A DNA stretch of 64,000 nucleotides, taken from positions 1,057,163 through 1,121,162 of the forward strand of contig NZ_CP006270.1 in assembly GCF_000737575.1 (NCBI RefSeq), read 5' to 3'. The notes beneath the pieces are model-generated. The model did not search any database. It was not told the origin of the DNA and worked only from the letters and a program-made list of their open reading frames with translations. Source of the stretch: Synechococcus sp. KORDI-49 (GTDB taxonomy: Bacteria > Cyanobacteriota > Cyanobacteriia > PCC-6307 > Cyanobiaceae). Positions 30,131 through 47,859 of the stretch are shown here, in pieces (position 1 is the stretch's first letter; every line of letters starts with the position of its first letter). A program made the translations under genes and the position numbers.

Positions 30131-31906
30131 TTATCGAACGCGATGGGAAAGAGGAAGAGAGCAACGCAGCTGATGCTCACCTGCAGCCAAACGGCCTGAA
30201 ATACAGAAGCTCTCTCTTGGCAACCGCTGGCCGAAGCCCGTGGAAAACCAGGTGGAATGCCAAGTGAATTCAGCACCCAAGACGGTGGGTGCATTCAGCA
30301 CAAGCTGATCGAGCAGCTCACGATTGATCGTCGGCCCGAGATGCCACCACTGGCGCACGTGCAACGGAATACGCGTGATCACCGTGTCGCTTACATCGAG
30401 ATTGATTCGACTGTGCTGAGGATCGCTGAGAGTGACGCGGCGGTGGTGGTTCGCGCCGATGTGATCAAAGCCGTTATGACTGCCACCAGCAAAGCAGATG
30501 CCCTGGGCTATTTGGCCGAAAGTGCGGTCGCGCGGCTGAGCCTTGCGGCCTGCGCGGAAACCACCCCAAACATCAACTGGTTCGATCCAACGAATGGCAC
30601 CAGGTGTGCTTTCCAATCCCAGCTGTAACACGTTATGAGCAGCTCCTGAACGTTCGTAGGCACGCTCAGGGCCATTGCCATAGATGCTGGTGCCGGCTTC
30701 GCTGAGGAGCCAGCGGCCATGACGGCATAGCTCGAAGCTCAGTTGGTCGGAATGGACGTGGGGCGGCAGATGGTTAGGGCAGGGAACGCCGCATTTGAAC
30801 ATGAGTTCCCAACCGTGCCCAGGCCGCAACAAGGTCCAACCTGTGTCGGGCAGGTCCGTCACAACTGCTTGCGCCCGCCGATGCTCGGCCGATGGGGTGA
30901 GCTGTGGCACCACAGCTGTGGCGAAAGCCAACACCGCATCGAGGGGTGGTGCTGCATCGGCGGCACTGTCGTTGAAGCGTGGGGACGCCCCGGTTTCGAG
31001 GCGAATCATTTCGGCCCAGTGGGCCATAGCGCCGATCGCCTCCATCAACCATGAAGGCTGATCACCAGTGATAGTTTGCAAAGTCTGGGCTAGTTCAGCC
31101 AGGCGATCGAGCATGAGCAGGTGGTAGCTGGCGCTGCGCTCCTCATGCCCGCCATCGCCAAGCACCTGTTGGCTGAGCTCACGCTGCAGCTGGCGCATCG
31201 CTCGGTGATGCATGCGAATGGCCTTGGGGCCATCAAACTGCACCCCGCCAACGGCCAGGGCTGTGAGGTTTTCGAGCCAGTGATTGCCGCCATGGCAGTG
31301 CTCGGAATGGGCTTGCAGCCAACACAACTGCTGCCAGAGCGACTGCAGCCGCTCGGGTGTTGCTAACGATGGACACCGCTGGAAGAGAGCAATCCAGTTC
31401 CGGGTCCTTAGCGAGAGGGTGTAGCTGTGCCAGCCATCACCTCGGCCTGGTGGATTAGAGGCAATCCAAGAATCCAAAAGAGGCTGGAGGACTGCTGCCT
31501 GATCAGGCCAATCCCCAGTTTTCAAGGCCTCATTAAGCCATTCGCGAGTCCAGCCGAAGTAGTGGAGATTAAATTGCCAGAGGCGGGGCCACTGTGGATC
31601 GTTCCATTCGATCGGCCATGGCAGTTGGCGCTCCTGATTGAGGAAGTTGAAGCTGATGACTTGCAGGCTGGAAGCCGCAAGAGGCAGCGCCAGCACATCA
31701 TCACCAGATGCCGGCGGGTGAATCGTGCGCCACCTGGGAGTGTGCCCCTGGGCTCCGGCCCAGGCCAAAGAGATCCTGGGCGGTAAAAGACGGTCGATCC
31801 TCTGCCTTAGTTCGTAGCGGAACCTCCGCTGCAACCGGATTGGGCCGATGTCAGCAAGCGTGCGGCTCATTCGACCAAGTGAAACCAGCTTGCTGGCCAA
31901 GCTCAT
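30131..31906 (-). CDS. Heparinase II/III-like protein
   Basis: 591 residues. An (alpha/alpha) toroid-like N-terminal domain contains WQFNLHYFGWTREWL and HGGNHWLENLTALAVG; the C-terminal beta region has HVHSDQLSFEL, RWLLSEAGTSIYGNG and RSGAAHNVLQL, the heparinase II/III family core. The family cleaves uronic-acid polysaccharides by beta-elimination. Here it has no signal peptide and sits inside a biosynthesis operon, between WecC (4-base overlap) and a glycosyltransferase, so it may trim or release uronate-containing polymer, or have lost lyase activity and act in assembly. Confidence 0.85.
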   Translation of the reverse strand: MSLASKLVSLGRMSRTLADIGPIRLQRRFRYELRQRIDRLLPPRISLAWAGAQGHTPRWRTIHPPASGDDVLALPLAASSLQVISFNFLNQERQLPWPIEWNDPQWPRLWQFNLHYFGWTREWLNEALKTGDWPDQAAVLQPLLDSWIASNPPGRGDGWHSYTLSLRTRNWIALFQRCPSLATPERLQSLWQQLCWLQAHSEHCHGGNHWLENLTALAVGGVQFDGPKAIRMHHRAMRQLQRELSQQVLGDGGHEERSASYHLLMLDRLAELAQTLQTITGDQPSWLMEAIGAMAHWAEMIRLETGASPRFNDSAADAAPPLDAVLAFATAVVPQLTPSAEHRRAQAVVTDLPDTGWTLLRPGHGWELMFKCGVPCPNHLPPHVHSDQLSFELCRHGRWLLSEAGTSIYGNGPERAYERSGAAHNVLQLGLESTPGAIRWIEPVDVWGGFRAGRKAQPRDRTFGQIAQGICFAGGSHNGFDHIGANHHRRVTLSDPQHSRINLDVSDTVITRIPLHVRQWWHLGPTINRELLDQLVLNAPTVLGAEFTWHSTWFSTGFGQRLPRESFCISGRLAAGEHQLRCSLPLSHRVR

Positions 31907-33120
31907 GTCGGTTCAGTCACACCGCAAAGGTCAAACACCATGCGCCCGGTGAGAACCAGGCTGCGGAAGGGGCTGTGGGCCACGAGGAAGACCAACAGAT
32001 CGGCATCGGCGAGCACCTGCTCGAGGCTGTGGAGCTTGATGGTGGCGTGGTCTTGGAGATTGGGTTCGCAAGCGAGCACATCCAGGCCGGCCACCAGAAG
32101 CTCAGTGGTGATGTGGAGGGCTGGGGACTCACGCAAATCATCAACATCGGGCTTGAAGGCCAGGCCCAAGCAGCCGATACGGGCAGGTCGGCCGAGCTGG
32201 TCTTCCAAGGCCATAGCACGAGCCTGCACCTGCTCAATCACCCAGCGGCTCTTGCCGTCGTTCACGCGGCGGGCCGTTTGGATCAGGGGTGTGCAGTCGG
32301 GTGCTTCTGCAGCAATGAACCAGGGATCGACGGCGATGCAATGGCCACCCACACCGCAGCCAGGTTGCAACACACTCACACGGGGGTGGTGATTGGCGAG
32401 GCGGATCAGCTCGCGGACGTTAATCCCAAGGCGATCACACACAAGCGAAAGCTCGTTGGCGAAGGCGATGTTGACATCGCGGAAACTGTTTTCAGTGAGC
32501 TTGACCAGCTCAGCGGTGCGGGCAGTGGTGGTATGCAATTCGCCCTGACAGAAGCTGGAATAGAAAGCCTTGCCTACTTCTGCCGCCATAGGAGTGAGTC
32601 CACCAATCACACGATCGTTGCTCACCAATTCCTGCAGAATGCGGCCGGGCAGAACTCGCTCGGGGCAGTAGGCAATATGCAGCTGCTCGATGCTGAGACC
32701 AGAAAGCTCTGCGATGACCTGGGCGAGCCTCTCGGTCGTGCCCACAGGTGAGGTTGATTCGAGCAGTACAAGATTACCCGGCCGCAGAACCGGAGCAATC
32801 GCGCGAGACGCCGCCAGTACATAGTCGATGTTGGGCTGGGGGATGCCATCTATGCCGCTGCGAAAGGGCGTTGGCACAGCGATCAGGAAGACATCTGCCG
32901 GCACAGGTGTGGTAAAAGCAGCTAGATGACCAGAAGCGACAGCCTCGGCTACGGCTAGCTCAAGATCGGGCTCCACAATGTGGATCTGGCCCTGGCTCAC
33001 GGTGGCTACAACCTGAGCATTGACATCAATACCCGCTACAACGTGACCGGATCGAGCGAGCATCGCCGCAGTGGGGAGGCCGATGTAACCGAGCCCTATA
33101 ACGCAACAAGTAAAAGTCAA
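31903..33120 (-). CDS. wecC: UDP-N-acetyl-D-mannosaminuronate dehydrogenase
   Basis: 405 residues. N-terminal VIGLGYIGLPTAAML binds NAD. The WecC-type signature AYCPERVLPGRILQELV and the catalytic Cys in GVGGHCIAVDPWF are present. It would oxidise UDP-ManNAc (or a relative) to the uronate, fitting the adjacent heparinase-like gene. The start codon is TTG at 33120: the family N-terminus begins there, and the frame upstream meets a TGA within six codons with no ATG or GTG. It marks the edge of the AT-rich cassette; sequence upstream is compositionally different. Confidence 0.9.
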   Translation of the reverse strand: MTFTCCVIGLGYIGLPTAAMLARSGHVVAGIDVNAQVVATVSQGQIHIVEPDLELAVAEAVASGHLAAFTTPVPADVFLIAVPTPFRSGIDGIPQPNIDYVLAASRAIAPVLRPGNLVLLESTSPVGTTERLAQVIAELSGLSIEQLHIAYCPERVLPGRILQELVSNDRVIGGLTPMAAEVGKAFYSSFCQGELHTTTARTAELVKLTENSFRDVNIAFANELSLVCDRLGINVRELIRLANHHPRVSVLQPGCGVGGHCIAVDPWFIAAEAPDCTPLIQTARRVNDGKSRWVIEQVQARAMALEDQLGRPARIGCLGLAFKPDVDDLRESPALHITTELLVAGLDVLACEPNLQDHATIKLHSLEQVLADADLLVFLVAHSPFRSLVLTGRMVFDLCGVTEPT

Positions 33121-33361
33121 ATCAAAAAACGAAGTTCAGGGAAGACAAAGCAAATGGGAAACAAAACTCAAAAAGCGAGACAAATTACCCCACCGACCAA
33201 TACACATCAACAATTAAGAAAATAAACACTAAGTCGAGCGGAGGAAGGGCGAGAGAGAAAGAAGCTGAAAAGACCGCAAAAAGGCAAAGCTTCTTTACGC
33301 TAACATCACAGACAGTTACCGCAAATGTCGAGAAATTTGAAGAGAATGGGAAAATTCAAAA

Positions 33362-34108
33362 TCAAACAAGGTCGATAGGAGGCAAAGAGGAAAGGGGAAT
33401 TGAATTCCCAGAGAACAAATCAACATCTGCCAAACTGGCAAATTGGGGATCAGTTGTCAACAACTCTGGACGGGACGAACGCCTCCACAATCTCATTAAC
33501 CATCTATCAGACCGAGAACGAATTTCAGAATATTGAAGTGATCCACCATAAAAATGCCCACCTTTTCTTAAGCCTATACCAGACACTATAATGTTCGCAT
33601 TAGGGTGCTGATCCATCGCCAGACAAAGTGCAGCGAGACCAGTACTAGAGTGACACCAATGCATTGATCGCTTAAAGAGCAAATCTTTTAATGCAACCTT
33701 AAGCTTACGCAACCCACCTAAACCCACAAACGGGGCAAAAAGGCCAACTCTTCGGTAAAGCAACATATAACGCTCAAAAAATGAGTAACACACTAATTGC
33801 GGGACAGGATTCAAGCCAATAATATCAGAACAGAATTCGACAGGATTCTCTGCTTTCTCGCCCATCAGGCAGATAACATCTGGACAAGATAAACGTAAAG
33901 CTCGATGTATTTGAGCACGATCAAGGAACTCGCCACTTCCGATGACAGATTGAACCTTTTGAGGAGGATTGAGAGACAGCGAATACCTGGAATCGGAATA
34001 ATAAATGGAGAGTGCAATTGCAGCATTAGCACAATAAACATAGGAAGGCTCTACACATGGGAGAAGAGCATCAGGCTTTGCACCAAGAACCAGAACGTTA
34101 TAAGTCAT
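33362..34108 (-). CDS. Putative glycosyltransferase, sialyltransferase-like fold
   Basis: 248 residues. The N-terminus YNVLVLGAKPDALLP followed by VYCANAAIAL resembles the nucleotide-binding start of GT42/MAF-type sialyltransferase-like proteins. The segment HSSTGLAALCLAM...NIIVSGIGL..GGHFYG matches their T/S-S-G...AIALG..xIYLSGIDF motif in order and spacing. This would fit a CMP-sugar donor, as made by the cytidylyltransferase at 37611. Similarity is by eye and moderate. It is the last gene of the cassette, overlapping the previous gene by 4 bases; 241 bases of purine-rich sequence with no gene follow before wecC. Confidence 0.45.
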   Translation of the reverse strand: MTYNVLVLGAKPDALLPCVEPSYVYCANAAIALSIYYSDSRYSLSLNPPQKVQSVIGSGEFLDRAQIHRALRLSCPDVICLMGEKAENPVEFCSDIIGLNPVPQLVCYSFFERYMLLYRRVGLFAPFVGLGGLRKLKVALKDLLFKRSMHWCHSSTGLAALCLAMDQHPNANIIVSGIGLRKGGHFYGGSLQYSEIRSRSDRWLMRLWRRSSRPELLTTDPQFASLADVDLFSGNSIPLSSLPPIDLV

Positions 34109-35277
34109 TGATGATCCAACAGCAAATGGGAAAGGAATTGGGTAGAGAGGAAAAATGATGAAGGTAGTTGATGAATGCCAGGATGAGACAGATAGCCAAA
34201 CACATCAAAAGGGGAATTATCAAGCCAATTGACATATAGGACAGGAATATTAAACAAGGCACACTCCAAGGTTGATGCTGAATTGCCAGATATAAGCAAA
34301 TCTACCCCACACAGAAACTCTTCAAAGGTTCCAGAAGAATCGATACTAAAACAGATGCTATGAGCTCGAGAAGCTTCTACCAAAAGAGGAATATAACTTG
34401 ACCTAGAATGGGTTGGGTGCAGGCGCACAGAAAAACAAAGAGGCAGATCAGATTTAATTTGTGCAATATTCGAGAAAAGCTGACTCAAGACAGCCAAATC
34501 GGAAGGCAAGGCTATACCAACTGTAAGTGACAGAGGAAGGCTGATGCGATTTCTCTTAAGGGAGACATTAACCGGGAAGAGTATTGAAGAACAAAACTTA
34601 GAATGAAAATCCAAACAACATTTATCTAGAATCAGAAGAGATTTATACCAAGAAATAGCAGGCAACCAAGATTGCTCAAAGCTGAGCCTAAACAGATGTA
34701 CATTTGCACCTAATGAAGAACAGCGAAGAAGCAGAGCAAGGTGAATGGGCATCTGATCTTCGGGCAAAAAGAGATCATCAGCAGAAAAAGCAGATCGAGG
34801 CAATGAGTACAGAAAAGACACGTAGAGAATAAAGTCCCCAACAACAGCGGGATATCGGAGAAGAGATACAGGGGAAGTTATAGAGACATACAAAAATAAA
34901 GCACAAAAGTATAGCCTAAACAACATATTATGCCGTAAACTCAAAGAAAAGTCGCACTGAAAAGAAGCATTACAACAAGCACTATAAGTATTTTTAAACT
35001 TAAAGCAATGGTCGAAAACTAAGGCAATATTGCGATCAATACTATATCTAGAAAGAGAAATATTAAGCCTATTAGGCAAGACTACAGCCCTTGCGAAAAT
35101 ATATAAATGTGGCGAGAGCCTAGAAAGGAGAATTTTGTTCGATGACGAACCATACCACTTCTTGCGGCGCAAATTATAACCATAAATACGTTGTTTTTTT
35201 TCTTCTTGCGAAGCAGAATAAACAAGTAATTGCCTAAAAAGCGAAAATGAAAAAAATTTTAGAGTAAAGAAAGACAT
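34105..35277 (-). CDS. Putative glycosyltransferase or glycan phosphotransferase (GT-B-like)
   Basis: 390 residues, very rich in Leu, Ser and Phe. The C-terminal third has VRLHPTHSRSSYIP, then FEEFLCGVDLLISGNSAS and TLECALFNIPVLYVNW. This order resembles the donor-binding half of CDP-glycerol transferases and capsule polysaccharide (KpsC/S-like) transferases, where an HP motif and a G-x-S-S...E pair bind the nucleotide. The N-terminal half is unlike anything recognised. The start overlaps the methyltransferase by 19 bases. Exact activity unknown. Confidence 0.5.
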   Translation of the reverse strand: MSFFTLKFFSFSLFRQLLVYSASQEEKKQRIYGYNLRRKKWYGSSSNKILLSRLSPHLYIFARAVVLPNRLNISLSRYSIDRNIALVFDHCFKFKNTYSACCNASFQCDFSLSLRHNMLFRLYFCALFLYVSITSPVSLLRYPAVVGDFILYVSFLYSLPRSAFSADDLFLPEDQMPIHLALLLRCSSLGANVHLFRLSFEQSWLPAISWYKSLLILDKCCLDFHSKFCSSILFPVNVSLKRNRISLPLSLTVGIALPSDLAVLSQLFSNIAQIKSDLPLCFSVRLHPTHSRSSYIPLLVEASRAHSICFSIDSSGTFEEFLCGVDLLISGNSASTLECALFNIPVLYVNWLDNSPFDVFGYLSHPGIHQLPSSFFLSTQFLSHLLLDHQ

Positions 35278-36008
35278 GCAATCAACCTACCACATTTATC
35301 ACAAGAAGCAGGATAAAGCCGGAGGCATGAGTCATAAAGAAAAGAATTAAAAACAGGAATATCGAGTCGGAATAACTTATTGTTAAAAATTTTTTTGATA
35401 ACTGAATACCCAAAAGGATAACGCTCGAAACCCATAATGGATACTATATTAAAATATGGCTCAAGCAGAGAAACCAATGATGACTCTGAGAAGTGTTGAA
35501 AATGCTTATTCTCAAGGGGCTTATTAATGGAAGGTACGGTTAATATTAACAAACCGTCCTTGGATAAAGAATTGGAAAGCTTGCTTAAGAAAGAAAGGAT
35601 TTGATCAGGAGGTATATGCTCTAGAACTTCAATGCATGTAATCACATCATAAGGTGCACAAGAAATAAAATCTTGATTGCTAAAGAAGGTTCCAGGAGAA
35701 AAAAGAGATGCCCACCTTAATGCATTGGAATCATAGTCAAATCCATAGGGGTCGACATCAAAAGGAGTATCTTGACTAAGCAAAAAGTTTAAAAGAGCAC
35801 CATCTCCGCAACCAACGTCAGCATATTTTAAAAATGAAGACTCTCCAAAGAATGAAGTGAAATAATTAAGGATAAGGGTGCAGGCCGCATGATAAGAAGG
35901 TGCAAAAGGATAGAATTTAGCATACCTAAACGAAGAATCGAGCGAGGGAATATAATGATAAGGGAAAGAGTACTGCAGATGTTGCTTCTGCTGAGACTTG
36001 ATAGGCAT
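35259..36008 (-). CDS. Class I SAM-dependent methyltransferase
   Basis: 249 residues. Motif I is YADVGCGDGALLNFLL, followed by GFDYDSNALRWA (motif II acid), ITCIEVLEHIPP (motif IV/post I) and SLSKDGLLILTVPS. This is the Methyltransf_23/UbiG-like pattern. The C-terminus holds Cys-x2-Cys (SCDKCGRL), unusual for the group and possibly metal-binding. It probably methylates a sugar or lipid-linked intermediate of this glycan. It lies 2 bases after the preceding glycosyltransferase. Confidence 0.8.
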   Translation of the reverse strand: MPIKSQQKQHLQYSFPYHYIPSLDSSFRYAKFYPFAPSYHAACTLILNYFTSFFGESSFLKYADVGCGDGALLNFLLSQDTPFDVDPYGFDYDSNALRWASLFSPGTFFSNQDFISCAPYDVITCIEVLEHIPPDQILSFLSKLSNSLSKDGLLILTVPSINKPLENKHFQHFSESSLVSLLEPYFNIVSIMGFERYPFGYSVIKKIFNNKLFRLDIPVFNSFLYDSCLRLYPASCDKCGRLIACLSLL

Positions 36009-36010
36009 AA

Positions 36011-36958
36011 TCAGGAAAACCTAGAAAGGAAAGAATTAATATAATAAAAAAGAACACGGGGAACGTTTCGGCGCTCAAATGAAAGCTTAAAAACTGTCAA
36101 GATAGAGAGCAATCGTGAAGGGCGGGATAATTTGCAATAATAAGGATAACCAACTACATTAAGGTGCAAATGAATGGAGGAGGCGATAATAATTTGAATT
36201 TGATCCAGCGTGAGTGATGATGGAGGCGAAGAAGGCTCCATAAAAAAATTAGACTCTGCGGCAACAACTTTTGCAACTTGGGAGTTTATTAATGGAGGCA
36301 TTGGATTGGTGAACCCTGCAGCAAACCCATGCATAATTGCTTTAAAGTCAGAATCGCTTTTTGAGGATTCACGCCAATAATTTATGTAATGAGGAGTTCC
36401 TGAATCAAGATATTTATAAGAATGAATCCATGCTTTACGAAATAAATCAGCGGGGGCTTGAAAATAATCATGCAAACCAATTATAGCCGGTGAAACAAGT
36501 AATTGATGATTCTTATGCTTAAGCCTGTTGATGACATAGCTTTCAGGCCGAATATCCAAGCCTTCTTCTGGTATGAATGATAATGCATCTCCTACGCACG
36601 ACCTACGATACAAATGGTTGCCAGCAACGCGAACTTGGCCAAGGATTTTGTCGGCAACAAAAGCTAGAGCTACTGCAATCTTGCCATTCCAACGAGTACG
36701 ACTTACAAGAAATTGACGTGCATAAGTAGAATGAAATATGATGTCGGCATCAACACAGAAAAGCCATTGATAGCTGATATTTTCAATCAGCAACTCAAAT
36801 CCTTTTCTAAGAGTTAATGAAAAAGGAACCTCGGAAACAGTTTTAATTTGATCAGACGAAAAACCGATTTGGAGCAAACTATCAACACATAAATCATAAG
36901 ACTGTTCGTTGGTGTAACGAACTACAACTAACACATCCGAAAGAGATGAAAATGGCAT
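36011..36958 (-). CDS. Putative GT-A glycosyltransferase
   Basis: 315 residues. VLVVVRYTNEQSYDLCVDSLL begins like a GT-A enzyme and the metal-binding DxD is in WLFCVDADIIF. A His-containing later segment (IIGLHDYFQAPADLF) may be acceptor-side. Donor and acceptor are unknown. It overlaps the short-chain dehydrogenase stop by one base (36958), tying it to the cyclase-cytidylyltransferase block. Confidence 0.6.
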   Translation of the reverse strand: MPFSSLSDVLVVVRYTNEQSYDLCVDSLLQIGFSSDQIKTVSEVPFSLTLRKGFELLIENISYQWLFCVDADIIFHSTYARQFLVSRTRWNGKIAVALAFVADKILGQVRVAGNHLYRRSCVGDALSFIPEEGLDIRPESYVINRLKHKNHQLLVSPAIIGLHDYFQAPADLFRKAWIHSYKYLDSGTPHYINYWRESSKSDSDFKAIMHGFAAGFTNPMPPLINSQVAKVVAAESNFFMEPSSPPSSLTLDQIQIIIASSIHLHLNVVGYPYYCKLSRPSRLLSILTVFKLSFERRNVPRVLFYYINSFLSRFS

Positions 36959-37605
36959 TATTTATAAATCCTTGACGTACTAAATCCACCGTCAACTACT
37001 AATGTTTGACCTGTAATAAACGTATTATGCGGACCGCATAAAGAAAAGACAGCATTGGCTACATCTAAAGTAGTGGCTAAACGGCAAAGAGGAGTTTGCT
37101 CGAGAACATTATTGCGCTGGTCTGGTGACATATTTTGTCGACTCATAGGAGTATCTACAACACCTGGAGCCACCAAGTTAACCTTGATATCAAAAGAACC
37201 AAGATCAATCGCCAACGAATTTACCAATCCAGAAAGAGATGATTTAGAAATAGTATAAGAAAGCTTTTCAGTGCGAGACAGAAACTGCCATATAGAACTT
37301 AGTATACACAACTTAGCGCCATTTTTTATCGATTTATTGGCTAAAAGGAAATTTAAAGAATCTAAGACATAAACAACATTTGCATTTATAACGGAAAGAC
37401 AATCTGATCTAGAGTAATCTAATATTGAATCTTTTAAATTAACACCTTGAGCCCAGACGACAACATCAAGAGAACTTGGGGGAAGGGACAATGAATCTAG
37501 GGGAGAATCATGAGGATGAGTAAATACCCTATATTTATTCTCTTGAAAAACGGAACAAATTTGAGATCCAAGGGCTCCACTAGAGCCAAAAATTAGAACA
37601 TTCAC
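36958..37605 (-). CDS. Short-chain dehydrogenase/reductase
   Basis: 215 residues from a GTG start. The dinucleotide motif is FGSSGALGSQI, the catalytic Ser lies in CILSSIWQFLS, and the catalytic pair is Tyr-x3-Lys in SYTISKSS. The closing VAPGVVDTPMS and GQTLVVDGGFS are classical SDR features. An earlier Met in the frame (37653) would overlap the cytidylyltransferase by 43 bases; the GTG 5 bases after that stop gives the family N-terminus VNVLIFG. Probably reduces a keto group of the sugar or cyclitol made by the genes just upstream. Confidence 0.88.
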   Translation of the reverse strand: MNVLIFGSSGALGSQICSVFQENKYRVFTHPHDSPLDSLSLPPSSLDVVVWAQGVNLKDSILDYSRSDCLSVINANVVYVLDSLNFLLANKSIKNGAKLCILSSIWQFLSRTEKLSYTISKSSLSGLVNSLAIDLGSFDIKVNLVAPGVVDTPMSRQNMSPDQRNNVLEQTPLCRLATTLDVANAVFSLCGPHNTFITGQTLVVDGGFSTSRIYK

Positions 37606-37610
37606 AGCCC

Positions 37611-38333
37611 TTAATAAGTAAAGGAAGTGGGAGTATTTTTTAAGTGATCCCAATTTGAATGAAAGGGGACATCAAAAGGGCCATTAATATCACGACCAGT
37701 AATCCAAGGCCTCACAATAGGTAGAACCTTAGGACCCATCCAGGTCCAAGGAGATGGTCCCTCATGTAGAAAGATATATTCAGATCTGACCAACCAAACA
37801 CCCTGATCATAAAAATAAGCAGGTTCATAAGTATGCCTATCAGTATTAACATTTCTCGGAGAAAATTCCTCAAGAGAACCATCTACAATCTTTAAAGCCC
37901 TAAAAGGGTGATCATCAGCTGCTTCCCAGACAGTCATTAAACCAGAAAAATCGGGTTGATCAATGAGACTGTCCAAACATTGATTAATTAATTGGCCATC
38001 GATCATAACCGTGTTACCAATTAGTACTATAAAGAAATCAGGGGTGCCAAACTTATTACAATACTGCAATGCAGCATCTCTAATAGCATCACCATGATTA
38101 ACGGTGTCACCTGCCAAGAAGTCAGGTCTTGGCAAATTTTGTACACCTAACTTAAGCGCAGAGGAAGCTATCTGAGGGCAATCAGTGTTGACAAAAGTAT
38201 CGATATCATATTTACTCTCAGCAAGTGCGGTCAATGGATAATGAAGAAGAGGTATATTATTAATCAATATTATATTTTTTTTAAGAATAGATTTGCTGCC
38301 ACCACGTGCAGTAACAATAGCGCAAATTTTCAT
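37611..38333 (-). CDS. CMP-sugar-type cytidylyltransferase (NeuA/KdsB-like)
   Basis: 240 residues. The N-terminal AIVTARGGSKSILKKNI is the nucleotide-binding signature of acylneuraminate and Kdo cytidylyltransferases. Later conserved pieces include RPDFLAGDTVNHGDAI and the acidic DINGPFDVPFHSNWD end that would bind metal. It would activate a sugar or sugar-like acid as a cytidine nucleotide. No NeuB- or KdsA-like synthase is nearby, but a cyclase and an isomerase are, so the substrate may not be a normal ulosonic acid. Overlaps the cyclase by 4 bases. Confidence 0.85.
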   Translation of the reverse strand: MKICAIVTARGGSKSILKKNIILINNIPLLHYPLTALAESKYDIDTFVNTDCPQIASSALKLGVQNLPRPDFLAGDTVNHGDAIRDAALQYCNKFGTPDFFIVLIGNTVMIDGQLINQCLDSLIDQPDFSGLMTVWEAADDHPFRALKIVDGSLEEFSPRNVNTDRHTYEPAYFYDQGVWLVRSEYIFLHEGPSPWTWMGPKVLPIVRPWITGRDINGPFDVPFHSNWDHLKNTPTSFTY

Positions 38334-39454
38334 GGCTGGAGGTTCAAAATAGTGCTAGAGTTAAAATAGTTTGTTGCAAAATTGGCTACTGCTAGAGTCT
38401 CAGTTGGCAGTAAAGCCATATCTGTTAAGCTTGAATTTAAAGACATTGAAGGAGAAAACAGAATAAGACCTACTTGAGACATACTACGATTTTTCTTGTC
38501 GCTCTGAATAGAGGATTTAAATTTAGAAAAACTTATATTAACTCCAGACAAATTTATATTTGACGGAATAGAGGCGAGCAAAGTTTGAATAATTTCCGAA
38601 AGAAGCTGGGATGTATTTTCTAATAGAATAGAAGAACTAAATTGAAGTGACATCTCCATTCCGATCAATACTGCAACACCATGAGAGATCTTGAAATCTG
38701 TAGCCATTTCAATTGCATGGCCAAAAGTATGCCCGAAATTCAAACATTTTCTTAAAGCTGAGTCAAATTCATCAATCTCTATGAATTTTTTTTTGATATT
38801 GAGAGAGGCAAGAATTAAACCTGAGATGACATCATTTGAAGGCACTTTTTTAGAAACTAGATTAGACGAAAATAATCTCAACAGATCTACAACAGAAGGG
38901 TCCAAACTATTAAATTTTTGGGCAAGATAATGGATAATTTCACCTGCACCAGTATAAAACTCATAGTAAGGAAGAGTTTGGAGAAACGAAGTATCAATAA
39001 AAACATCATTAGGTGGATAAAAGAATCCAAGTTGATTCTTTAGGCCATTTAGATTAATCGAAACTTTACTACCAATACAACTATCCGCTTGTGCAGCGAA
39101 AGTAGTTGGAACGAGTACAAAATGAATTCCTCTTCTTATCAGACCAGCGATAAAACTTGCAGTATCTTGGACAACTCCACCACCAATAGCCACGACTGTT
39201 GTCGGAGGCATAGAAAAAAGTGATTGGATTTGCCGAAAATAATCAACAAAAGAACCAAACTCTTTTGCCTCTTCAGTAGAGTAAACGTATATTACTTTAC
39301 TATTTGGAGGAGCGACTTGAGAGGATTTGAAATAACTATCTATAACAAATAAAGTTGAATCAAGAGAATAACCAACAAATAAATTAGATTTTACACTTGA
39401 AAAGCGAACATTGGTTTGATGTCTGTGAGTTGTTATACTTAACAATTCATTCAT
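38330..39454 (-). CDS. Dehydroquinate-synthase-like sugar-phosphate cyclase
   Basis: 374 residues, AroB superfamily. Visible active-site elements: GGGVVQD (Asp97), RRGIHFVLVPTTFAAQADSCIGSK in two parts with Asp124 and Lys130, Asn140, Zn ligands Glu172, His242 and His258, LNFGHTFGHAIE (239-249), and SDKK (Lys320/321). Position 175 is His (GEIIHYL) where dehydroquinate synthases have Lys. The NAD and Zn sites look intact, so it should be an active cyclase. Its setting with SIS isomerase, cytidylyltransferase and SDR argues for cyclitol or carbasugar synthesis and against a role in the shikimate pathway. Overlaps both neighbours by 4 bases. Confidence 0.85.
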   Translation of the reverse strand: MNELLSITTHRHQTNVRFSSVKSNLFVGYSLDSTLFVIDSYFKSSQVAPPNSKVIYVYSTEEAKEFGSFVDYFRQIQSLFSMPPTTVVAIGGGVVQDTASFIAGLIRRGIHFVLVPTTFAAQADSCIGSKVSINLNGLKNQLGFFYPPNDVFIDTSFLQTLPYYEFYTGAGEIIHYLAQKFNSLDPSVVDLLRLFSSNLVSKKVPSNDVISGLILASLNIKKKFIEIDEFDSALRKCLNFGHTFGHAIEMATDFKISHGVAVLIGMEMSLQFSSSILLENTSQLLSEIIQTLLASIPSNINLSGVNISFSKFKSSIQSDKKNRSMSQVGLILFSPSMSLNSSLTDMALLPTETLAVANFATNYFNSSTILNLQP

Positions 39455-40089
39455 ACGCGCAAAGGTGAATTAACATTTCTCAAATTTTCAGCCTTAATAC
39501 TTGGACAGTCGTGGCCAACTCTATGAATCAACTCATAAAGAAGAAACATACACGCAACCTCAACAGTATGAAAATAATCAAAACCCATTTGTAAGCCAGG
39601 AATATCTTCGGGTTTTTTATTTGCTCCAGCAATCATAAATGCGTTACCACCCTTATTGATAGACCACCTCAACGCATCAACAACATTTTTTGAAGACCCT
39701 GAGCAACTCAGACCTAATACTAATGTTCGGGAAAGATCCTTGTGGCCAACAGTTGCTTCTAACCAACGGACAAAAACTTGTTCGTAGCCATAATCATTCG
39801 CGGAAGAAGTAATAAAACCGAAGCTATCAAAAGAATAAAAAGATTTATTAGGTATTAACCTGCACATGTCGGTTGCCAAATGACTACCGACGTAATGCAA
39901 ACCACCGTTAGCAACAACGAAAACGTCCTCCGCTTCTTGGACGGACTCAACTAAAGCGTTGTATTTGGGAGAATCACAGATGTGCTCAATTCGAGACTCT
40001 ACCTTTTCAAAATCAATTAACATGGGTCGAGACATCGTTACATCAATATTATAGCCAATGGACGCGCTACGCGCGTGAGCCGAGCTCAT
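39451..40089 (-). CDS. SIS-domain sugar-phosphate isomerase (GmhA-like)
   Basis: 212 residues. VVANGGLHYVGSHLATDMCR and LGLSCSGSSKNVVDALRWSI correspond to the two phosphate-binding loops of GmhA/SIS proteins, and TVEVACMFLLYELIHRVGHD to the closing active-site helix with Glu. GmhA isomerises sedoheptulose 7-phosphate. Here Asn-Gly-Gly replaces the usual N-G-G/S with normal spacing. In-frame Mets at 40035 and 40023 are alternative starts. It is the first gene of a block with 4-base overlaps to the cyclase; 162 bases upstream without a gene could hold a promoter. Confidence 0.8.
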   Translation of the reverse strand: MSSAHARSASIGYNIDVTMSRPMLIDFEKVESRIEHICDSPKYNALVESVQEAEDVFVVANGGLHYVGSHLATDMCRLIPNKSFYSFDSFGFITSSANDYGYEQVFVRWLEATVGHKDLSRTLVLGLSCSGSSKNVVDALRWSINKGGNAFMIAGANKKPEDIPGLQMGFDYFHTVEVACMFLLYELIHRVGHDCPSIKAENLRNVNSPLRV

Positions 40090-40251
40090 AAGTCAGACTG
40101 GCACAGGGACTTCTATAGTTAAGATAGAGGTAAAGTACTGAAATAAGTTATTGCATGATGAGCTAGGTGAAAGCCCTTCATTTTTAATTCCAGTACTACC
40201 AAATCAAATCGACACACTACCTAATAAGCTGAGTATTCAGACTAATTGCTG

Positions 40252-41169
40252 TCATTTACGGGCAACAATTGTCATTGACTCGGTCAGTAAATCTTGGATT
40301 GATATGCCGGACCCTAAGGCATTTTCTGAAATATCTGATACTTCAAAAGAAGAATCTAGGTACTCGCGATGCTGATATTCAATTTCAAAGGATTCTGACA
40401 AGGCAATTTTAAGATGCTGCGTGGGAGTTACACCATTGATCCATTGATATACATGAGAGGATTTACTTAGATTTCGAACATGCTCCGCTGTATTTCGATA
40501 GTGTCCATTCCAGAGACGAGATAAGCCATGAGATTTGAAATCTATTTGTGTAAGAAGAACTCCATTAGGCTTTAAAGCCCTATAGATACTAGCGTATAAT
40601 TCATCTAAATCTCCAACGTGTTCAAAGCAGGCTTGTGAATATATAATGTCATAGGAGTTAGCTTGAATCTGATCAAAAGAATAGGGAGCTTGGTAAGAGA
40701 TATGCTTCTCAAAAGTATGATCGAAGGACAGTCTCTTGAGTAAAGGATTTATTGTGGGCGAAAATGAGCGTAAATTACGCACAGTATATGGCAACACCGG
40801 GCTCTTGGAATAATTGTCAATTAAATAATTCACGACTGAATTCGCATGCTCTCTGCTTTTATCAATACTTGCATAAGGGAATGCATCAAAAGCATCGTAT
40901 GAAGAAAACCCCATGGCTAACCATAAATAACCAAGTGCAACAGAATCACCGGGACCAATTTCACAAACAGCCAAAGATTTAGGATCATCTATATCCATAT
41001 GCAAAGAGATAAGATTAAGGTTCCGATTAATAAGCTCTAGTGCATACCTCTCTCCAGAAATACCTCCAGTACGATTTGGCCTAAAAAAGGTACGATATAA
41101 GAGTTTGATCCTTGAGAGTAAAAAGTCGGCTTTTTGACTTTTTGCAGCGAGGGAGGTAGTAAAATTCAT
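40252..41169 (-). CDS. Class I SAM-dependent methyltransferase
   Basis: 305 residues. AVCEIGPGDSVALGYL is motif I, with the acidic FDAF region next and the downstream IIYSQACFEHVGDLDELY and RALKPNGVLLTQID typical of the fold. The N-terminal 60 residues are helical. The sequence pattern resembles glycan-cluster methyltransferases. Target unknown. It is 30 bases downstream of the GT2 gene, and precedes the SIS gene by 162 bases. Confidence 0.75.
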   Translation of the reverse strand: MNFTTSLAAKSQKADFLLSRIKLLYRTFFRPNRTGGISGERYALELINRNLNLISLHMDIDDPKSLAVCEIGPGDSVALGYLWLAMGFSSYDAFDAFPYASIDKSREHANSVVNYLIDNYSKSPVLPYTVRNLRSFSPTINPLLKRLSFDHTFEKHISYQAPYSFDQIQANSYDIIYSQACFEHVGDLDELYASIYRALKPNGVLLTQIDFKSHGLSRLWNGHYRNTAEHVRNLSKSSHVYQWINGVTPTQHLKIALSESFEIEYQHREYLDSSFEVSDISENALGSGISIQDLLTESMTIVARK

Positions 41170-41199
41170 TATGAAAGGAAGGTGGTGGGTAAAATACGA

Positions 41200-42054
41200 C
41201 TAATAATAAAGCTTAAGAATATGACTGCACGCGTAGAACTGATGCCTAACTATGCGTGAATCACGTATAACTGATCCAGTAGAAGCATGGCGTGAATGAA
41301 AAACTCTGAGGCGGGAGATGTGATAAATAGGGACGCCAAAATTTAAGCATTTCTCAGCAAGCATAATAGTCTCACCAAAAAGGAAAGAGAAATGTTTAAA
41401 ATCTATACCATGCTGCAGTGCGCATTTATTAACTATAACACAAGAGCCATGTGGAGCATAGATAGGCGTAGCAACATCCGTATTAAGTAAAGCATTTGTT
41501 TGAGATTTAAGATTCAAGGCTTTTGGGCAATTATTAGAACAAAAGCCCACCATCCAAGACTTGATCTTGGAAAGTAAATCATAGACAGCATAAAACATAT
41601 TGAAGGCATAGATAATTTTCATGAATTCATGATAGGTCTTCGATGGTCTTTTAAGTATTTGGGGATTTTGGTCTGCTCCGCCTGAATAAATTGAAGGGCC
41701 AATTACTATTGGATTATCAAGAAGGGGATTAGATATTAAATTACGAACGAAATCAGAGGCATATTCTATGTCTGGATTGGCTACCACTGTAAAATCAGCA
41801 ACGAGTGAAGAAGACACAACTTGATGCGCAGAATTATAGAATCCCAGATTAAACACAGGTTTAATGTGTCTTATGAAAATATTTGATTTTTTGTTATTCT
41901 TGGGGATTGACTCAGGATCAAAAGATCTGCTGTTATCGACAATATCAATATATAAGCTGGCATTGTCAGGAAAATCGTTAAAAAACAAGGATTCTATGCT
42001 TTTAATAACATAGGAATCACTATGAAAATTCACGATAATAATGCGTATCAACAT
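41200..42054 (-). CDS. GT2 family glycosyltransferase (rhamnosyltransferase-like)
   Basis: 284 residues. RIIIVNFHSDSYVIKSIES opens the GT-A fold, followed by FNLGFYNSAHQVV and FTVVANPDIEY, the NxD-type metal site of rhamnosyltransferase-like GT2 enzymes. HGSCVIVNKCAL and FGETIMLAEKC form the acceptor side. It overlaps the preceding gene by 7 bases. A deoxyhexosyl donor is plausible but unproven. Confidence 0.8.
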   Translation of the reverse strand: MLIRIIIVNFHSDSYVIKSIESLFFNDFPDNASLYIDIVDNSRSFDPESIPKNNKKSNIFIRHIKPVFNLGFYNSAHQVVSSSLVADFTVVANPDIEYASDFVRNLISNPLLDNPIVIGPSIYSGGADQNPQILKRPSKTYHEFMKIIYAFNMFYAVYDLLSKIKSWMVGFCSNNCPKALNLKSQTNALLNTDVATPIYAPHGSCVIVNKCALQHGIDFKHFSFLFGETIMLAEKCLNFGVPIYHISRLRVFHSRHASTGSVIRDSRIVRHQFYACSHILKLYY

Positions 42055-42782
42055 TTAATTCTCCTAAAAAAACCAATGATAGAAGCAAGTGATTTTTTCG
42101 ACTTGTTATTATGAGGTGTATATTCTATACAGTCGAATACATTGCTAAAATCTTTGATGCATATCTTTCTTTGATATTTTTCAATTACCATTGAAAGAGC
42201 AAGTTGATCTCGCCCCAAAAAGATTGGATCAGAAAGCAGGTGATACCAATCACTTAATAACGAGTTGACTGCACCATTATTAATGTCAAAGCCAAAAACC
42301 CCTCCTAATGTTAAACTTCTATTTGATATGAGACATGGATATTTTAAAAGTATTTTTAAAGCCCTTAATATAGAATATTTACCATTGTAGATTAAATAAA
42401 ACACCTCCAACAATGCGCTTCGCCTTTTCGGGTGATCGCAAGCATAAAAGATATCCTTCATATTATCGCAGGCTGGTATGGATTTGAACGAAATGGAAGT
42501 GTCGTGATAGACAATTTTATTGTCTTCAGCGTCACAATCAAGTATTTGAGACAAATGCGTTTTAATATAACGGCTGTGCTTAACAGGATTAAAACCATCA
42601 GGGCTCGATATGATGTGAACTTGATTTTCTAATAAAGCCTCCGTAATAGAGTGTCGGGATAAAGACTCAGGCACCACTAATACCCTCTTAAAGGTCAGAT
42701 TGATGCCTGACAGACTAACTAAATTTGAAAGGTATTCCCTCAGATAGGGTAAAGATGTTGCCGCAGATACTAGATGGAGCAT
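42048..42782 (-). CDS. Putative GT-A-like glycosyltransferase
   Basis: 244 residues, not assigned with certainty. IVYHDTSISF sits where a DxD-like metal motif would be. FYACDHPKRRSALLEV and the later FGFDINNGAVNSLLSDWYHL...GRDQLALSMVI recall plant TOD1/DUF616-type and related glycosyltransferases, in which a Trp helix and RDQ segment follow the acceptor loop. Its position between a propeller-like gene and a GT2 gene fits. Overlaps of 13 and 7 bases with neighbours show it is part of the operon. Confidence 0.45.
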   Translation of the reverse strand: MLHLVSAATSLPYLREYLSNLVSLSGINLTFKRVLVVPESLSRHSITEALLENQVHIISSPDGFNPVKHSRYIKTHLSQILDCDAEDNKIVYHDTSISFKSIPACDNMKDIFYACDHPKRRSALLEVFYLIYNGKYSILRALKILLKYPCLISNRSLTLGGVFGFDINNGAVNSLLSDWYHLLSDPIFLGRDQLALSMVIEKYQRKICIKDFSNVFDCIEYTPHNNKSKKSLASIIGFFRRIKC

Positions 42783-43858
42783 TGGGCTAGAGCAAAAGCT
42801 TTATTGAGATGAAAATAATAAGACGATGAATTTGTGATGACTTTCGTTGTGTGCAAGTTACGGAGGGTAGCAAGAAAAAATGATTCCTGAAGTGGAGGTA
42901 TAATTAAATCATGAAATAAATACTGCATATACTTAAGGTTGTAGTATTGACTAGGCCTTGATGAATCCAGCATAGTCAAAGTATGGGAACTAATGTCATA
43001 TAGAAGAAGACTGGCAAAAGGATATAGTCTAAAGCTAGATGGTTCAACTGCAATTGAAATGAGAAGTTGTTGTGCTAAGCGCTCAATCCGAAAAACAGGG
43101 CCAGGCAAATCAAGAATCTCACGAGGAGACTTATGTTTATCAAGCGAATGATGAACCAAGAAATTTTGATTGCAAGGCGCATCGGTGCCATAGAAAAAAT
43201 TCACATCATCAACAAAACTTAAAGCTATGCACCTGTGTAACTGTGAACCGTGAGCCAAAGTAATTAAGGAATGATGTTTAGAAGTGCGGTGATCGAGTTT
43301 ATATATAGAACAATCTTCGTCCATATCTCCTGTACAGATAAGTAAATCCCGCGCGTTAGGTACAGGATGTATTGAGTGAATATGCCTACAACAAGGAACA
43401 TCAATAAGTTTATAAAGCATTAGCTCGCCGCTTAGGGGTTGCACATCAAGCTGAAATGAAGAGCGAAGGCCTCGAGAGGAAGAAGATGTATACTCACCAA
43501 ACAACAGAGATATTGGATTGCTAGAAGAACGAACGACTAATAATGGTGCCTTAAAATATAGCTTTTGAGAAGAAACTATTTGCAATGTTTTCAGGCATAA
43601 TGACAAAATCTGAAATGGCAGAAAAACAATAAGATACTTATTGCAGATTCGAGCATGTAGCACTTCTAGCCTCAAAACTCGATTAATCACAGGGAGAGAA
43701 AAGTGGATTGAATCCTTAAGACTTCTTGTGATTAAAGTCGAAGTATTAGAGGCATAAACAAATAAACGTCGACCTCTCGAGAATATTATATGCGAATTAC
43801 TTGCATCAAGAAGCTTATAATCTCTTTTTATCTGTATTTCAAGTAGGTCAAAATCCAT
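42770..43858 (-). CDS. Hypothetical protein, predicted beta-propeller-like
   Basis: 362 residues, no close family recognised. The sequence is mostly short beta strands with repeated turns: HIHSIHPVPNARDLLICTGDMDEDCSIYKLDH, then TLAHGSQLHRCIALSFVDDVNFFYGTDA and later FASLLLYDISS. The G-D..D..I pattern recalls BNR/propeller proteins. No signal peptide. It overlaps the sulfotransferase by 31 bases and the next gene by 13, so it belongs to the glycan operon. Binding of, or acting on, glycan is an inference from context. Confidence 0.4.
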   Translation of the reverse strand: MDFDLLEIQIKRDYKLLDASNSHIIFSRGRRLFVYASNTSTLITRSLKDSIHFSLPVINRVLRLEVLHARICNKYLIVFLPFQILSLCLKTLQIVSSQKLYFKAPLLVVRSSSNPISLLFGEYTSSSSRGLRSSFQLDVQPLSGELMLYKLIDVPCCRHIHSIHPVPNARDLLICTGDMDEDCSIYKLDHRTSKHHSLITLAHGSQLHRCIALSFVDDVNFFYGTDAPCNQNFLVHHSLDKHKSPREILDLPGPVFRIERLAQQLLISIAVEPSSFRLYPFASLLLYDISSHTLTMLDSSRPSQYYNLKYMQYLFHDLIIPPLQESFFLATLRNLHTTKVITNSSSYYFHLNKAFALAQCSI

Positions 43859-44637
43859 GTTATGAAAATGTATGGAAAGAAGAGGCAGGACCAGGCAGTA
43901 GTCATAAGGCCGTGATTTTTTGGAAACAAGATAAAAATCAACGCCTTTTTTAATTTTAACATATTTTGCTCTAGCCTGTTATCAGAATTTTTTTCGCACT
44001 GTGGAGTACAGCGAAAAGTCTGATCATTAGTCCCAAAGCTCTTGATTTGCGATGAAATATTTTTTTTCCATTGCAATTCATCTACTCGTGGCCGCAGCTG
44101 CTCGGGGAAATGTTGATGATGACAAAAACACTTCGGATCAAAATCAAGATTAAGATCTAGTAATATTTGTTTTATTGTATCTTCAGGCTTTTCAATTAGA
44201 TGCTCATATTTTACAGACGTCATAAGATGTGGAAAGAAAAATCTATTCATATAGTGGGCAGAATATTGAGAATATATGGCAATAAAATGGCGCATCAAAT
44301 GCTGACTACGCGACCAGTCTGCGCGTATTCTGGAATTATATACATTGCAGGGATTCCTTATTGTTTGGACAATAGAGATTTTAAACCCTTTTGAAGAAGC
44401 TAACAGCGTTGGTATGCAACTTATTAATAGGGGTGACTTAATGACAAAATTATCTGGAGTGGAACCATTGATATCAATATATTTGCCAAGATATACCGGC
44501 AATCCTTTAGTTAATAATTTATCTTTAGTAAATTTCTCCTCAGGTATTCCATAAAAATCATTATGGCAGGATAAAATTACATGTAGGAGCGATGTGCCGG
44601 ATCGACCTTGACCAACAACATAAATAACGTGGCTCAT
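43828..44637 (-). CDS. Sulfotransferase family protein
   Basis: 269 residues. The 5'-phosphosulfate loop is GQGRSGTSLLHVIL near the N-terminus, and the 3'-phosphate site is VQTIRNPCNVYNSRI, the usual R-N/D-P...S-R pattern of PAPS-dependent enzymes. VKYEHLIEKPEDTIKQIL matches the later family helix. It should transfer sulfate from PAPS to a sugar of this polysaccharide, giving a negatively charged surface. A C-terminal hydrophobic segment (SCLFFPYIFITWILTYL) may anchor it in the membrane. Overlaps the polymerase stop by 4 bases. Confidence 0.85.
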   Translation of the reverse strand: MSHVIYVVGQGRSGTSLLHVILSCHNDFYGIPEEKFTKDKLLTKGLPVYLGKYIDINGSTPDNFVIKSPLLISCIPTLLASSKGFKISIVQTIRNPCNVYNSRIRADWSRSQHLMRHFIAIYSQYSAHYMNRFFFPHLMTSVKYEHLIEKPEDTIKQILLDLNLDFDPKCFCHHQHFPEQLRPRVDELQWKKNISSQIKSFGTNDQTFRCTPQCEKNSDNRLEQNMLKLKKALIFILFPKNHGLMTTAWSCLFFPYIFITWILTYLKYR

Positions 44638-45851
44638 GAATAAAAGAAGCGATTTTGACAGTTATTATTGATGCGTAAGACTATCAAAATAAACGGTATT
44701 AAAACTGAGGGTTTAGAAAGCATGCTTACAAAGCAAGATGAAATAAGAAGCATAATAATAATGCCCACCATAAACTCGGAAAAATAAGAATATTCTAACC
44801 TGTTATTATGGTAAAAGACATGTGCCGTAAGAATTAGAAGAAATGCCACATATATCGTTCCAATTAATCCATAATTTGCGATTGAAAAGAGGTAATCATT
44901 ATCAAATGAAGGAAAGACGTCCATAATTCGAGGCGCAACACCAGAAAATAGTGCTAAAAGATTTCTTTCAAATGAAGAAAGTATTGTATTCCAATTTTCA
45001 ATTCTAGCGTAAACAGAAGAATCTACTTTTTGTAAGACTACTAAAGTTGAAAGCCGAGTATAGAGACCAATCATAGATGAACTGGAAAATCTAAAGAATG
45101 ATACGATGGCAGTTGTAAGGCTAAGAAAAGCTAACAAGCTTTTGTAATTTAAAATATTTTTTTTCTTGATTGTAGACCTTAGATTTAAATATTTAAGTGA
45201 AATGAGAATGAATACAACAGCGAAAGAGGCGAAAACTGCTAATATAATGGATTTAGAGATAGTCAAAAGAAGGAGAGCTGTGCTCACAAAAATCATAAAA
45301 GCATCAAATTTTTTATTAGAATTAAATTTCGAAGAGTTCAGAATTCTAAATCCATAATAAAAAGTAAATAATGATGCTGCACCAGCTAGTGCAGAGTGAT
45401 CCGGATAAAGTCCGGCGACTCTAACGATAATTCTATTAAAGTTTTCAGAATGATTCGAATTATTGTAAATTGAACTTAGTGCATCTGAGAAGCCTAATTT
45501 TATTCTTAAAAGTTGTAGAGACGCTACGGTAAAGTTTAACAATATCCATCCGCTTAGGATTCTATCACTGTATCTAGCGAAAGTTGCACTCTGCGTTGAC
45601 AAACAAGGATAGAGCAGCAACAGTGGCAAAATTCTTATGATGTTATCATTGAAATCTTGGTAGCTAATGAGTTGAAAAACTATCACTAACAATAGCAATA
45701 TAGACATTACAAGTAAGTTATCGTAAGCGATACGACGAAGATATTTTCTGCTATTAATTAAGTGGTAAGCTTCAAAAACAAGAATTACGAAGTAGGGAAC
45801 AACATAGGAAGTAGTAGGGATAAATAATGTGAACATCTGCCTTTTTACCAA
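44634..45851 (-). CDS. Wzy-like O-antigen/polysaccharide polymerase
   Basis: 405 residues with about eleven hydrophobic segments, for instance NLLVMSILLLLVIVFQLIS, FMIFVSTALLLLTISKSIIL and FMVGIIIMLLISSCFVSML. A larger periplasmic loop lies around 140-165 and another near 270-310 with YARIENW. Low sequence conservation, many helices, and location next to a flippase are typical of Wzy proteins, which join repeat units on the periplasmic face. The assignment depends on topology and context, not on a firm motif. Confidence 0.7.
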   Translation of the reverse strand: MVKRQMFTLFIPTTSYVVPYFVILVFEAYHLINSRKYLRRIAYDNLLVMSILLLLVIVFQLISYQDFNDNIIRILPLLLLYPCLSTQSATFARYSDRILSGWILLNFTVASLQLLRIKLGFSDALSSIYNNSNHSENFNRIIVRVAGLYPDHSALAGAASLFTFYYGFRILNSSKFNSNKKFDAFMIFVSTALLLLTISKSIILAVFASFAVVFILISLKYLNLRSTIKKKNILNYKSLLAFLSLTTAIVSFFRFSSSSMIGLYTRLSTLVVLQKVDSSVYARIENWNTILSSFERNLLALFSGVAPRIMDVFPSFDNDYLFSIANYGLIGTIYVAFLLILTAHVFYHNNRLEYSYFSEFMVGIIIMLLISSCFVSMLSKPSVLIPFILIVLRINNNCQNRFFYS

Positions 45852-47829: not shown

Positions 47830-47859
47830 AAAAAATTAATTCAATGGAAATCAATACAT

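Follow-up and report, generated by a model that had tools for sequence, protein, structure and literature searches.

The four-gene block

The window analysed here is a 64,000-nucleotide stretch of the single 2.59-Mb contig that makes up the genome of Synechococcus sp. KORDI-49 (NZ_CP006270.1, positions 1,057,163 to 1,121,162), and its minus strand carries a block of four coupled genes that, as we read it with moderate confidence, would encode one pathway to a carbocyclic sugar analogue that is activated with cytidine monophosphate (CMP) and destined for a surface glycan. The first gene encodes a SIS-fold sugar phosphate isomerase-like protein of 212 aa (39451-40089), a remote relative of GmhA. 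It is followed by an AroB-type sugar phosphate cyclase of 374 aa (38330-39454), which is related to family TIGR04425 and has His175 at the place of Lys197 of dehydroquinate synthase (DHQS), by a CMP-sugar synthetase of the NeuA/KdsB (CTP_transf_3) family of 240 aa (37611-38333; hereafter the CTP enzyme), and by an oxidoreductase of the short-chain dehydrogenase/reductase (SDR) type (36958-37605). The open reading frames (ORFs) overlap by 4 bases at both the SIS/cyclase and the cyclase/CTP junctions. For the SDR, the ORF finder gave a TTG start at 37653, the longest frame; a GTG at 37605 sits just ahead of the glycine motif, is most likely the true start, and lies 5 bases past the CTP stop. The original prediction described these as four coupled genes, and the two overlaps and the 5-base gap bear this out.

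Recurrence of the gene set

A search of IMG/VR gave 26 cyclase loci and 71 SIS loci, and all 26 viral cyclases were linked, 19 to a SIS gene and 7 to a thiamine pyrophosphate (TPP) enzyme. After exclusion of the near copies L160, L162, L173 and L174, and of L200, L203, L165, L169, L178 and L179, which are the same contigs as L159, L160, L186, L189, L194 and L192, 30 distinct contigs carried the window's SIS type. The protein clusters of the comparison are single-linkage BLAST groups. Of the 30 contigs, a CTP_transf_3-type gene was present in 29 (the exception, L185, begins at a contig end), a cyclase in 23, an SDR in 18 and a class-III aminotransferase in 18; all four occurred together in 14 contigs, and all but the aminotransferase in 3 more. 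The gene set singled out by the original prediction therefore does recur beyond this genome. The CTP ORF exceeds 330 aa in 19/30 contigs, and the single one tested bears a cupin; L187 (3938-5062) and similar frames fuse a CMP-sugar synthetase domain to a C-terminal cupin domain. A gene resembling GT29, the sialyltransferase family, lies immediately ahead of the CTP gene in 13 contigs; the single member run against Pfam scored 26.8 bits (cut-off 23). NeuB and KdsA had no match in 27 of the 30 contigs, and 32 of the 37 SIS-type loci, copies included, had no match to NeuB, KdsA or 3-deoxy-arabino-heptulosonate 7-phosphate (DAHP) synthase, within locus stretches of at most about 16.6 kb beyond which more distant synthase genes could be missed. 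The three exceptional contigs have a KdsA (L169/L189) or a NeuB (L197 and L198) beside a second CTP gene.

Among sampled Cyanobacteria the system is sparse, as relatives of the window SIS protein were found in only 3/386 genomes of the phylum (E 1e-15) and relatives of the G462 SIS protein in 12/400 genomes of the family (E 1e-10). G473 (L107) has SIS, SDR, cyclase and cupin genes, G462 has SIS, CTP and HAD_2 genes without a cyclase, and G417 has SIS and HAD_2 genes with a CTP-type ORF. A profile of the window and G473 cyclases matched 15/380 family genomes at E 1e-38, and in 12 of the 13 family loci beyond these two queries a TPP enzyme and an SDR (one of them weak) adjoin the cyclase; the 13th, L144, has neither within its 3.9 kb. 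One scan of genome contigs returned two loci. G007, of the same genus, holds an SDR, a KdsB-subfamily CTP enzyme (211 bits against a cut-off of 193) and a cyclase nearer to AroB with H275Q in one overlapping run (L067, 9053-11675), which is, on its sequences, a second and non-orthologous SDR-CTP-cyclase design. Plasmids gave six part matches to the cyclase and none to the CTP enzyme, sequenced phages gave only part matches of AroB type to the window cyclase, IMG/VR had no match to the CTP enzyme, and PHROGs had none for cyclase or CTP enzyme and one family of unknown function for SIS.

As to whether the contigs are phages, a search confined to phages matched a gene family present in 14 of the 30 contigs to six records, including Immutovirus and Microcystis phage Mel-JY01, where it lies five genes ahead of a gene for a baseplate protein or tail lysozyme. 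Among 24 flanking ORFs, one matched a UvsX-like recombinase, three flanking ORFs had no match in sequenced phages, and no sequenced phage matched both the SIS protein and the cyclase of L187. The viral status of the remaining contigs is the IMG/VR assignment.

Exchange of cyclase and phosphatase-like genes

The seven contigs without a cyclase have another gene instead. L201 encodes a 178-aa protein resembling KdsC and related phosphatases (E 9e-9), and the other six encode small proteins of 126-140 aa with invariant DFDGV, S, K and DD, which are HAD-like motifs; profile alignment (hhalign) against the HAD_2 proteins of this set gave no match, and the motifs weakly support a phosphatase-like role. 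Thus, 23 contigs have only a cyclase, 7 only a HAD-like gene, and none has both or neither. None of the 23 cyclase contigs matched the HAD profiles within 5 kb of the SIS gene; these profiles were built from the cyclase-less loci and from L089 and L107, so that other HAD types beside cyclases could escape them, as the HAD_2 gene of G417 did. The exclusion has a Fisher p of 4.9e-7, a value uncorrected for kinship and biased, since the profiles come mainly from cyclase-less loci.

In a 34-row SIS tree, the cyclase/phosphatase state changes 7 times, and at least 6 changes are forced by the starred branches. The clearest case is the contig pair L200 (the L159 contig) and L201, which are 94.2% identical over 6,248 columns, then 88.5% over 1,470 and 88.9% over 5,340; at one site, the 1.7 kb that hold SDR and cyclase in L200 (6246-7981) stand in place of the 0.5 kb that hold the KdsC-like gene in L201 (7473-7982). 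Their exchange and exclusion suggest that one sugar phosphate can be completed ahead of CMP activation in either of two ways, hydrolysis by the phosphatase or, with the cyclase-SDR pair, a ring closure that would expel the phosphate, and this reading predicts CMP-linked carbocyclic sugar analogues. Because the replacement phosphatase is of KdsC type, the substrate leans to a 3-deoxy ulosonic acid phosphate. Cyclases of this kind need a carbonyl five carbons from the phosphate carbon, an arrangement that a DAHP-like C7 acid fits and Kdo 8-phosphate does not.

Family and active site of the cyclase

The window cyclase matched PF01761 (101.5 bits) and PF24621 (89 bits), and its 267.2 bits against TIGR04425 lie under the 400-bit cut-off. 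Among 34 genomes of the genus, two of which are incomplete and gave no match at all, only the window genome and G007 have two TIGR04425 matches (E up to 1e-40). In a 67-row tree, whose long branches drew the program's own warning, the window cyclase pairs with its G473 counterpart (support 99/94), this pair and ten TIGR04425-type proteins form a 12-row split from the 55 other rows (100/99), and grouping with the 26 cyanobacterial AroBs was rejected (approximately unbiased (AU) test, p 0.000277). The genome has a separate AroB, its second PF01761 gene, which groups with the AroBs of the genus on the tree. Taking the window cyclase for the genome's AroB was thus ruled out by this gene and by the AU test, as expected from the original prediction, and on the tree it sits with the uncharacterised TIGR04425 group rather than within cyanobacterial AroB. 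A quick 61-row tree that includes viral members puts the G473 cyclase among the viral SIS-linked cyclases. An AlphaFold model of the window cyclase (mean pLDDT 76.5, pTM 0.80) matched DHQS structures first and DOIS at ranks 36-40, and a fold search of BFVD gave no match at E 0.001.

Numbered by alignment to A. nidulans DHQS, the cyclase keeps 13 DHQS positions (D119, R130, D146, K152, N162, E194, K250, R264, N268, H271, H275, H287 and K356) and departs from the full DHQS set at K197, which is His, at E260, which is Asp, and at the Glu after HG, which is Val. His275 is described as the proton acceptor in PMC7144000. The residue comparison covered DHQS, DDGS relatives, ValA and a putative EboD group. 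Four DDGS relatives, one of which (L136) matches 5tpr at 672 bits, have K250M, R264D, N268A and H275P; ValA, aligned by eye, has M, R, D and P at K250, R264, N268 and H275; and a further cyanobacterial group, taken as EboD without an annotation test, has R264S, N268D and no Lys250. The K250 and K356 columns of the DDGS and EboD-like groups differ between two alignments, with loss of Lys250 in both. The changes that the sedoheptulose 7-phosphate (S7P) cyclases DDGS and ValA have at K250, N268 and H275 are thus absent from the window cyclase, and an AroB-type site kept without them weakens the case for a heptulose substrate.

None of the 52 cyclases linked to SIS or TPP enzyme genes departs from K250, R264, N268, H275 or K356. 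At position 175, 21 of the 25 SIS-linked cyclases have His and four have Lys (L158, L169, L178 and L179), and all four of these loci lack an SDR, as does L163, which has His; in the 27 TPP-linked cyclases the position is Lys in 26, Arg in 1 and His in none.

Partner enzymes and ulosonate synthases

The SIS protein had no Pfam family at E 0.001 and matched the gmhA equivalog model at 53 bits, under its cut-off of 209.45. His174 and Glu177 are invariant in 11 relatives, and Asp74 occupies what we take to be the place of the catalytic Glu of GmhA. The CTP enzyme is a member of PF02348 (39.9 bits, cut-off 22.6), and its best NCBIfam match is PseF at 62.8 bits, below the cut-off of 205.7. An Arg common to all six aligned CTP enzymes that neighbour NeuB or KdsA also occurs in the enzymes of the window and of G462; it is Lys, Ser or Thr in the 16 viral SIS-neighbour CTP enzymes aligned, which are part of those available. 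Known CTP_transf_3 members place CMP on a free hydroxyl. The SDR matched PF13561 at 103.5 bits, and its nearest relatives are SDRs adjoining TIGR04425-type cyclases.

The window itself had no match to NeuB, KdsA or DAHP synthase when searched by tblastn with the corresponding proteins of the genome, those resembling NeuB, KdsA and DAHP synthase. Elsewhere in the genome, a NeuB-family gene (PF03102, 274 bits; position 1143415) lies about 48 kb from the block and has a PF02348 neighbour at a distance of 5 kb. A further PF02348 gene is found within 6 kb of a KdsA-like gene (1800681), at that distance; we presume the names KdsA and KdsB for this distant pair from Pfam matches and motifs. The CTP gene of the window is the third PF02348 gene of the genome, which ruled it out as the only CMP enzyme, and the claim that it stands without an ulosonate synthase of its own, NeuB and KdsA being absent nearby, agrees with these partnerships. 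The NeuB match (L114, G000:C1:1143415-1144122) is part of a 765-residue open frame, possibly a fusion. A HpcH/HpaI aldolase as feeder of the cyclase was dropped, as the genome's best match of 16.5 bits was under the cut-off and none of the 37 SIS-type loci had one; the cyclase may instead receive a 3-deoxy acid made by DAHP synthase or by an enzyme of the host.

Genomic setting and related loci

The block lies within a polysaccharide island of low guanine-plus-cytosine (GC) content (33001-48000; 35-40%), flanked by 58-69% GC in the 33 kb to the left and 51-61% in the 9 kb to the right, which holds a sulfotransferase, an ABC transporter and a sub-threshold O-antigen-ligase match. Its host is a marine picocyanobacterium. 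The SDR stop shares 1 base with the next ATG (36958), and the coupled run extends on the minus strand to 33362. It comprises a 315-aa protein without assigned family (36011-36958), in which a DAD motif seen by eye suggests a GT-A glycosyltransferase, a methyltransferase found by family scan (35259-36008), and two further proteins without assigned family, of 390 aa (34105-35277) and 248 aa (33362-34108); the window ORFs without assigned family had only weak Pfam matches. Upstream of the block, after a 162-base gap, lies another minus-strand methyltransferase from the family scan (40252-41169). The methyltransferase, sulfotransferase, transporter and ligase-like neighbours fit the surface-polysaccharide setting proposed in the original prediction. 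A heparinase II/III-like protein (30131-31906) and the sulfotransferase (43828-44637) belong to the same region, and suggest, by family, an acidic, sulfated glycan.

Several related loci were met alongside. In the second SIS group of IMG/VR (L204-L253), 46/50 loci have a small HAD-like domain, which for the most part shares a single reading frame with SIS, and 26/50 have a match to HpcH/HpaI aldolase, usually immediately upstream; this gene content suggests that an ulosonic acid is made by isomerase, phosphatase and pyruvate aldolase in turn. Two Cyanobiaceae genomes (L106, 973-3719; L109, 3076-5753) couple a SIS gene to genes for a HAD-like protein and a HpcH/HpaI aldolase, and a CTP_transf_3 gene adjoins them in convergent orientation. 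TIGR04425-type loci (L055-L064; L145-L156; L168, L170, L171, L176, L177, L180 and L182) combine SDR, cyclase and TPP enzyme, often with a HpcH/HpaI aldolase (8/10 in L055-L064), and L060 also has RfbF- and RfbH-type CDP-sugar genes; they probably encode a branched CDP-sugar pathway, as these neighbours indicate. In L089 (5408-6472), the SIS-CTP-HAD genes of a Prochlorococcus contig are adjoined by a gene for a 354-aa protein whose sole domain is the pyruvate kinase barrel (PF00224).

A candidate pathway and its alternatives

The pathway that we propose from the gene set, its coupling and recurrence, the L200/L201 exchange and the genomic partners of the two other synthetases would begin with isomerisation of a sugar phosphate by the SIS protein. 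The AroB-type cyclase, with NAD, would then expel the phosphate and close a carbon ring, taking the place that the phosphatase has in sister cassettes; the SDR would reduce or otherwise adjust the ring ketone, the NeuA/KdsB-type enzyme would join the product to CMP, and a glycosyltransferase would transfer it to the glycan. We infer each of these reactions, the order of the SDR and CTP steps and the transfer step from gene content, and candidate substrates would be the phosphates of a heptulose, a hexose or a DAHP-like 3-deoxy acid. The cytidine activation named in the original prediction stands in so far as a CMP-type synthetase belongs to the cassette; that it acts on the cyclised product rather than on a side branch is suggested by the cassette swaps.

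A number of observations weigh against this pathway. In G473, SIS, SDR and cyclase lie together, yet the only CTP gene of the contig adjoins a NeuB-like gene, and besides the cyclase there are HAD and HMGL-like genes on the other strand. The SDR is missing from 5 of the 23 cyclase contigs, the window's order of SIS, cyclase, CTP and SDR occurs in no other SIS-type locus compared, and the quick 61-row tree, which does not resolve the window cyclase, fails to place it within the viral SIS-linked group. The CTP enzyme of G007 exceeds the KdsB cut-off and so may serve Kdo. Pfam found no family in the small HAD-like member tested, and a profile search of the PDB with these small proteins reached only E 0.043. 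A quinate-like C1 also has no ring oxygen to assist transfer from CMP.

The block may instead hold two parallel branches, sharing an operon because both serve one glycan: SIS and CTP enzymes, with a phosphatase elsewhere, would make an ordinary CMP-sugar, and cyclase and SDR a free cyclitol or cyclitol acid used without CMP. This would account for the joint occurrence of SDR and cyclase in TPP-type loci that lack SIS and CTP, for the SIS and CTP genes without cyclase in G462 and seven contigs, and for the NeuB neighbour as the only CTP gene on the G473 contig, but two independent branches would hardly explain why the cyclase and the searched phosphatase types exclude each other in the 30 contigs (23/7/0/0) and replace each other at one site in L200 and L201, and we consider it unlikely. 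Another thought is that the CTP enzyme serves an ulosonic acid from the genome's NeuB-family or KdsA-like enzyme, the cyclase product being unrelated. Both synthases exist in the genome, the best NCBIfam match of the CTP enzyme is PseF, and it keeps the Arg of all six NeuB/KdsA neighbours; however, a separate PF02348 gene lies within 6 kb of each synthase, and in the viral contigs the synthases are either unmatched (27/30) or beside a second CTP gene, which makes this quite improbable. That the cyclase came in with the island as a spare AroB and makes 3-dehydroquinate for aromatic acids seems to us barely credible: DHQS structures are its best fold matches and, of the listed substrate-region residues, it lacks only K197, E260 and the Glu after HG, but the genome has a separate AroB, the cyclase lies outside the AroB group and its neighbours are glycan genes.

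Within the proposed CMP pathway, the substrate itself may be disputed. Sedoheptulose 7-phosphate or another heptulose 7-phosphate, giving a valiolone-like ring, was favoured by the original prediction. It fits the GmhA-like SIS protein of the block and a block without a pyruvate- or phosphoenolpyruvate-adding enzyme, and S7P is a Calvin-cycle metabolite according to PMC5133447. The idea is weakened, and in our view doubtful although a serious contender, as K250, N268 and H275 are kept and all three are changed in DDGS relatives and ValA as aligned, and as the phosphatase swapped in at L201 resembles KdsC and related ulosonate-phosphate phosphatases.

Comparison with known systems

The nearest named family is TIGR04425, the 'AroB-related putative sugar phosphate phospholyase', with which the window cyclase shares E260D, the loss of the Glu after HG and an SDR neighbour; its high scorers differ in having TPP enzyme and CDP-dideoxyhexose gene neighbours, no SIS and Lys at position 175. 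The Kdo and sialic-acid pathways (KdsD/KdsA/KdsC/KdsB; NeuB/NeuA) resemble the cassettes in isomerase, phosphatase (KdsC-like in L201) and CTP_transf_3 enzyme, but the window block has no KdsA or NeuB and has a cyclase in the phosphatase's place. With the phosphoheptose isomerase GmhA the window SIS protein has in common the SIS fold and the remote similarity already given (53 bits against 209), whereas none of the GmhA partners HddA, GmhB and HddC was seen at the block. Like the block, the ebo operon represents a non-AroB cyclase clade in cyanobacteria, EboD, but PMC5133447 gives it other neighbours, and the putative EboD group has R264S, N268D and no Lys250.

Nucleotide-activated cyclitol pathways share with the window block the combination of a sugar phosphate cyclase and a nucleotidyltransferase in one coupled cluster, and GDP-valienol is a precedent for such a cyclitol (PMC9200736). 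As described there, acarbose and validamycin biosynthesis (AcbR/VldB) likewise runs from a sugar phosphate cyclase to cyclitol nucleotide activation and transfer, but with a GTP-type nucleotidyltransferase acting on a cyclitol 1-phosphate after a kinase and a phosphatase. The window block has a CTP_transf_3 enzyme and no kinase, and the residues of the S7P cyclases are absent. We found no such CMP-carbasugar system in the literature, most subscription journals being beyond the reach of the search.

Implications

More tentatively, we suggest from these loci that CMP-carbasugars would form a new class of sugar nucleotides, that aquatic phages and marine cyanobacteria may convert a CMP-sugar pathway by swapping its phosphatase for a cyclase-SDR pair, and that a carbocycle would thereby replace a sugar in surface glycans. 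Pathways of antibiotic type are a known source of nucleotide-activated cyclitols, GDP-valienol being an example. If the proposal is true, a CMP version would enlarge the range of sugars in the surface glycans of bacteria and phages and provide an enzyme set for carbasugar donors, and it would account for the AroB-like gene that stands beside a CMP-sugar synthetase in aquatic virus contigs.

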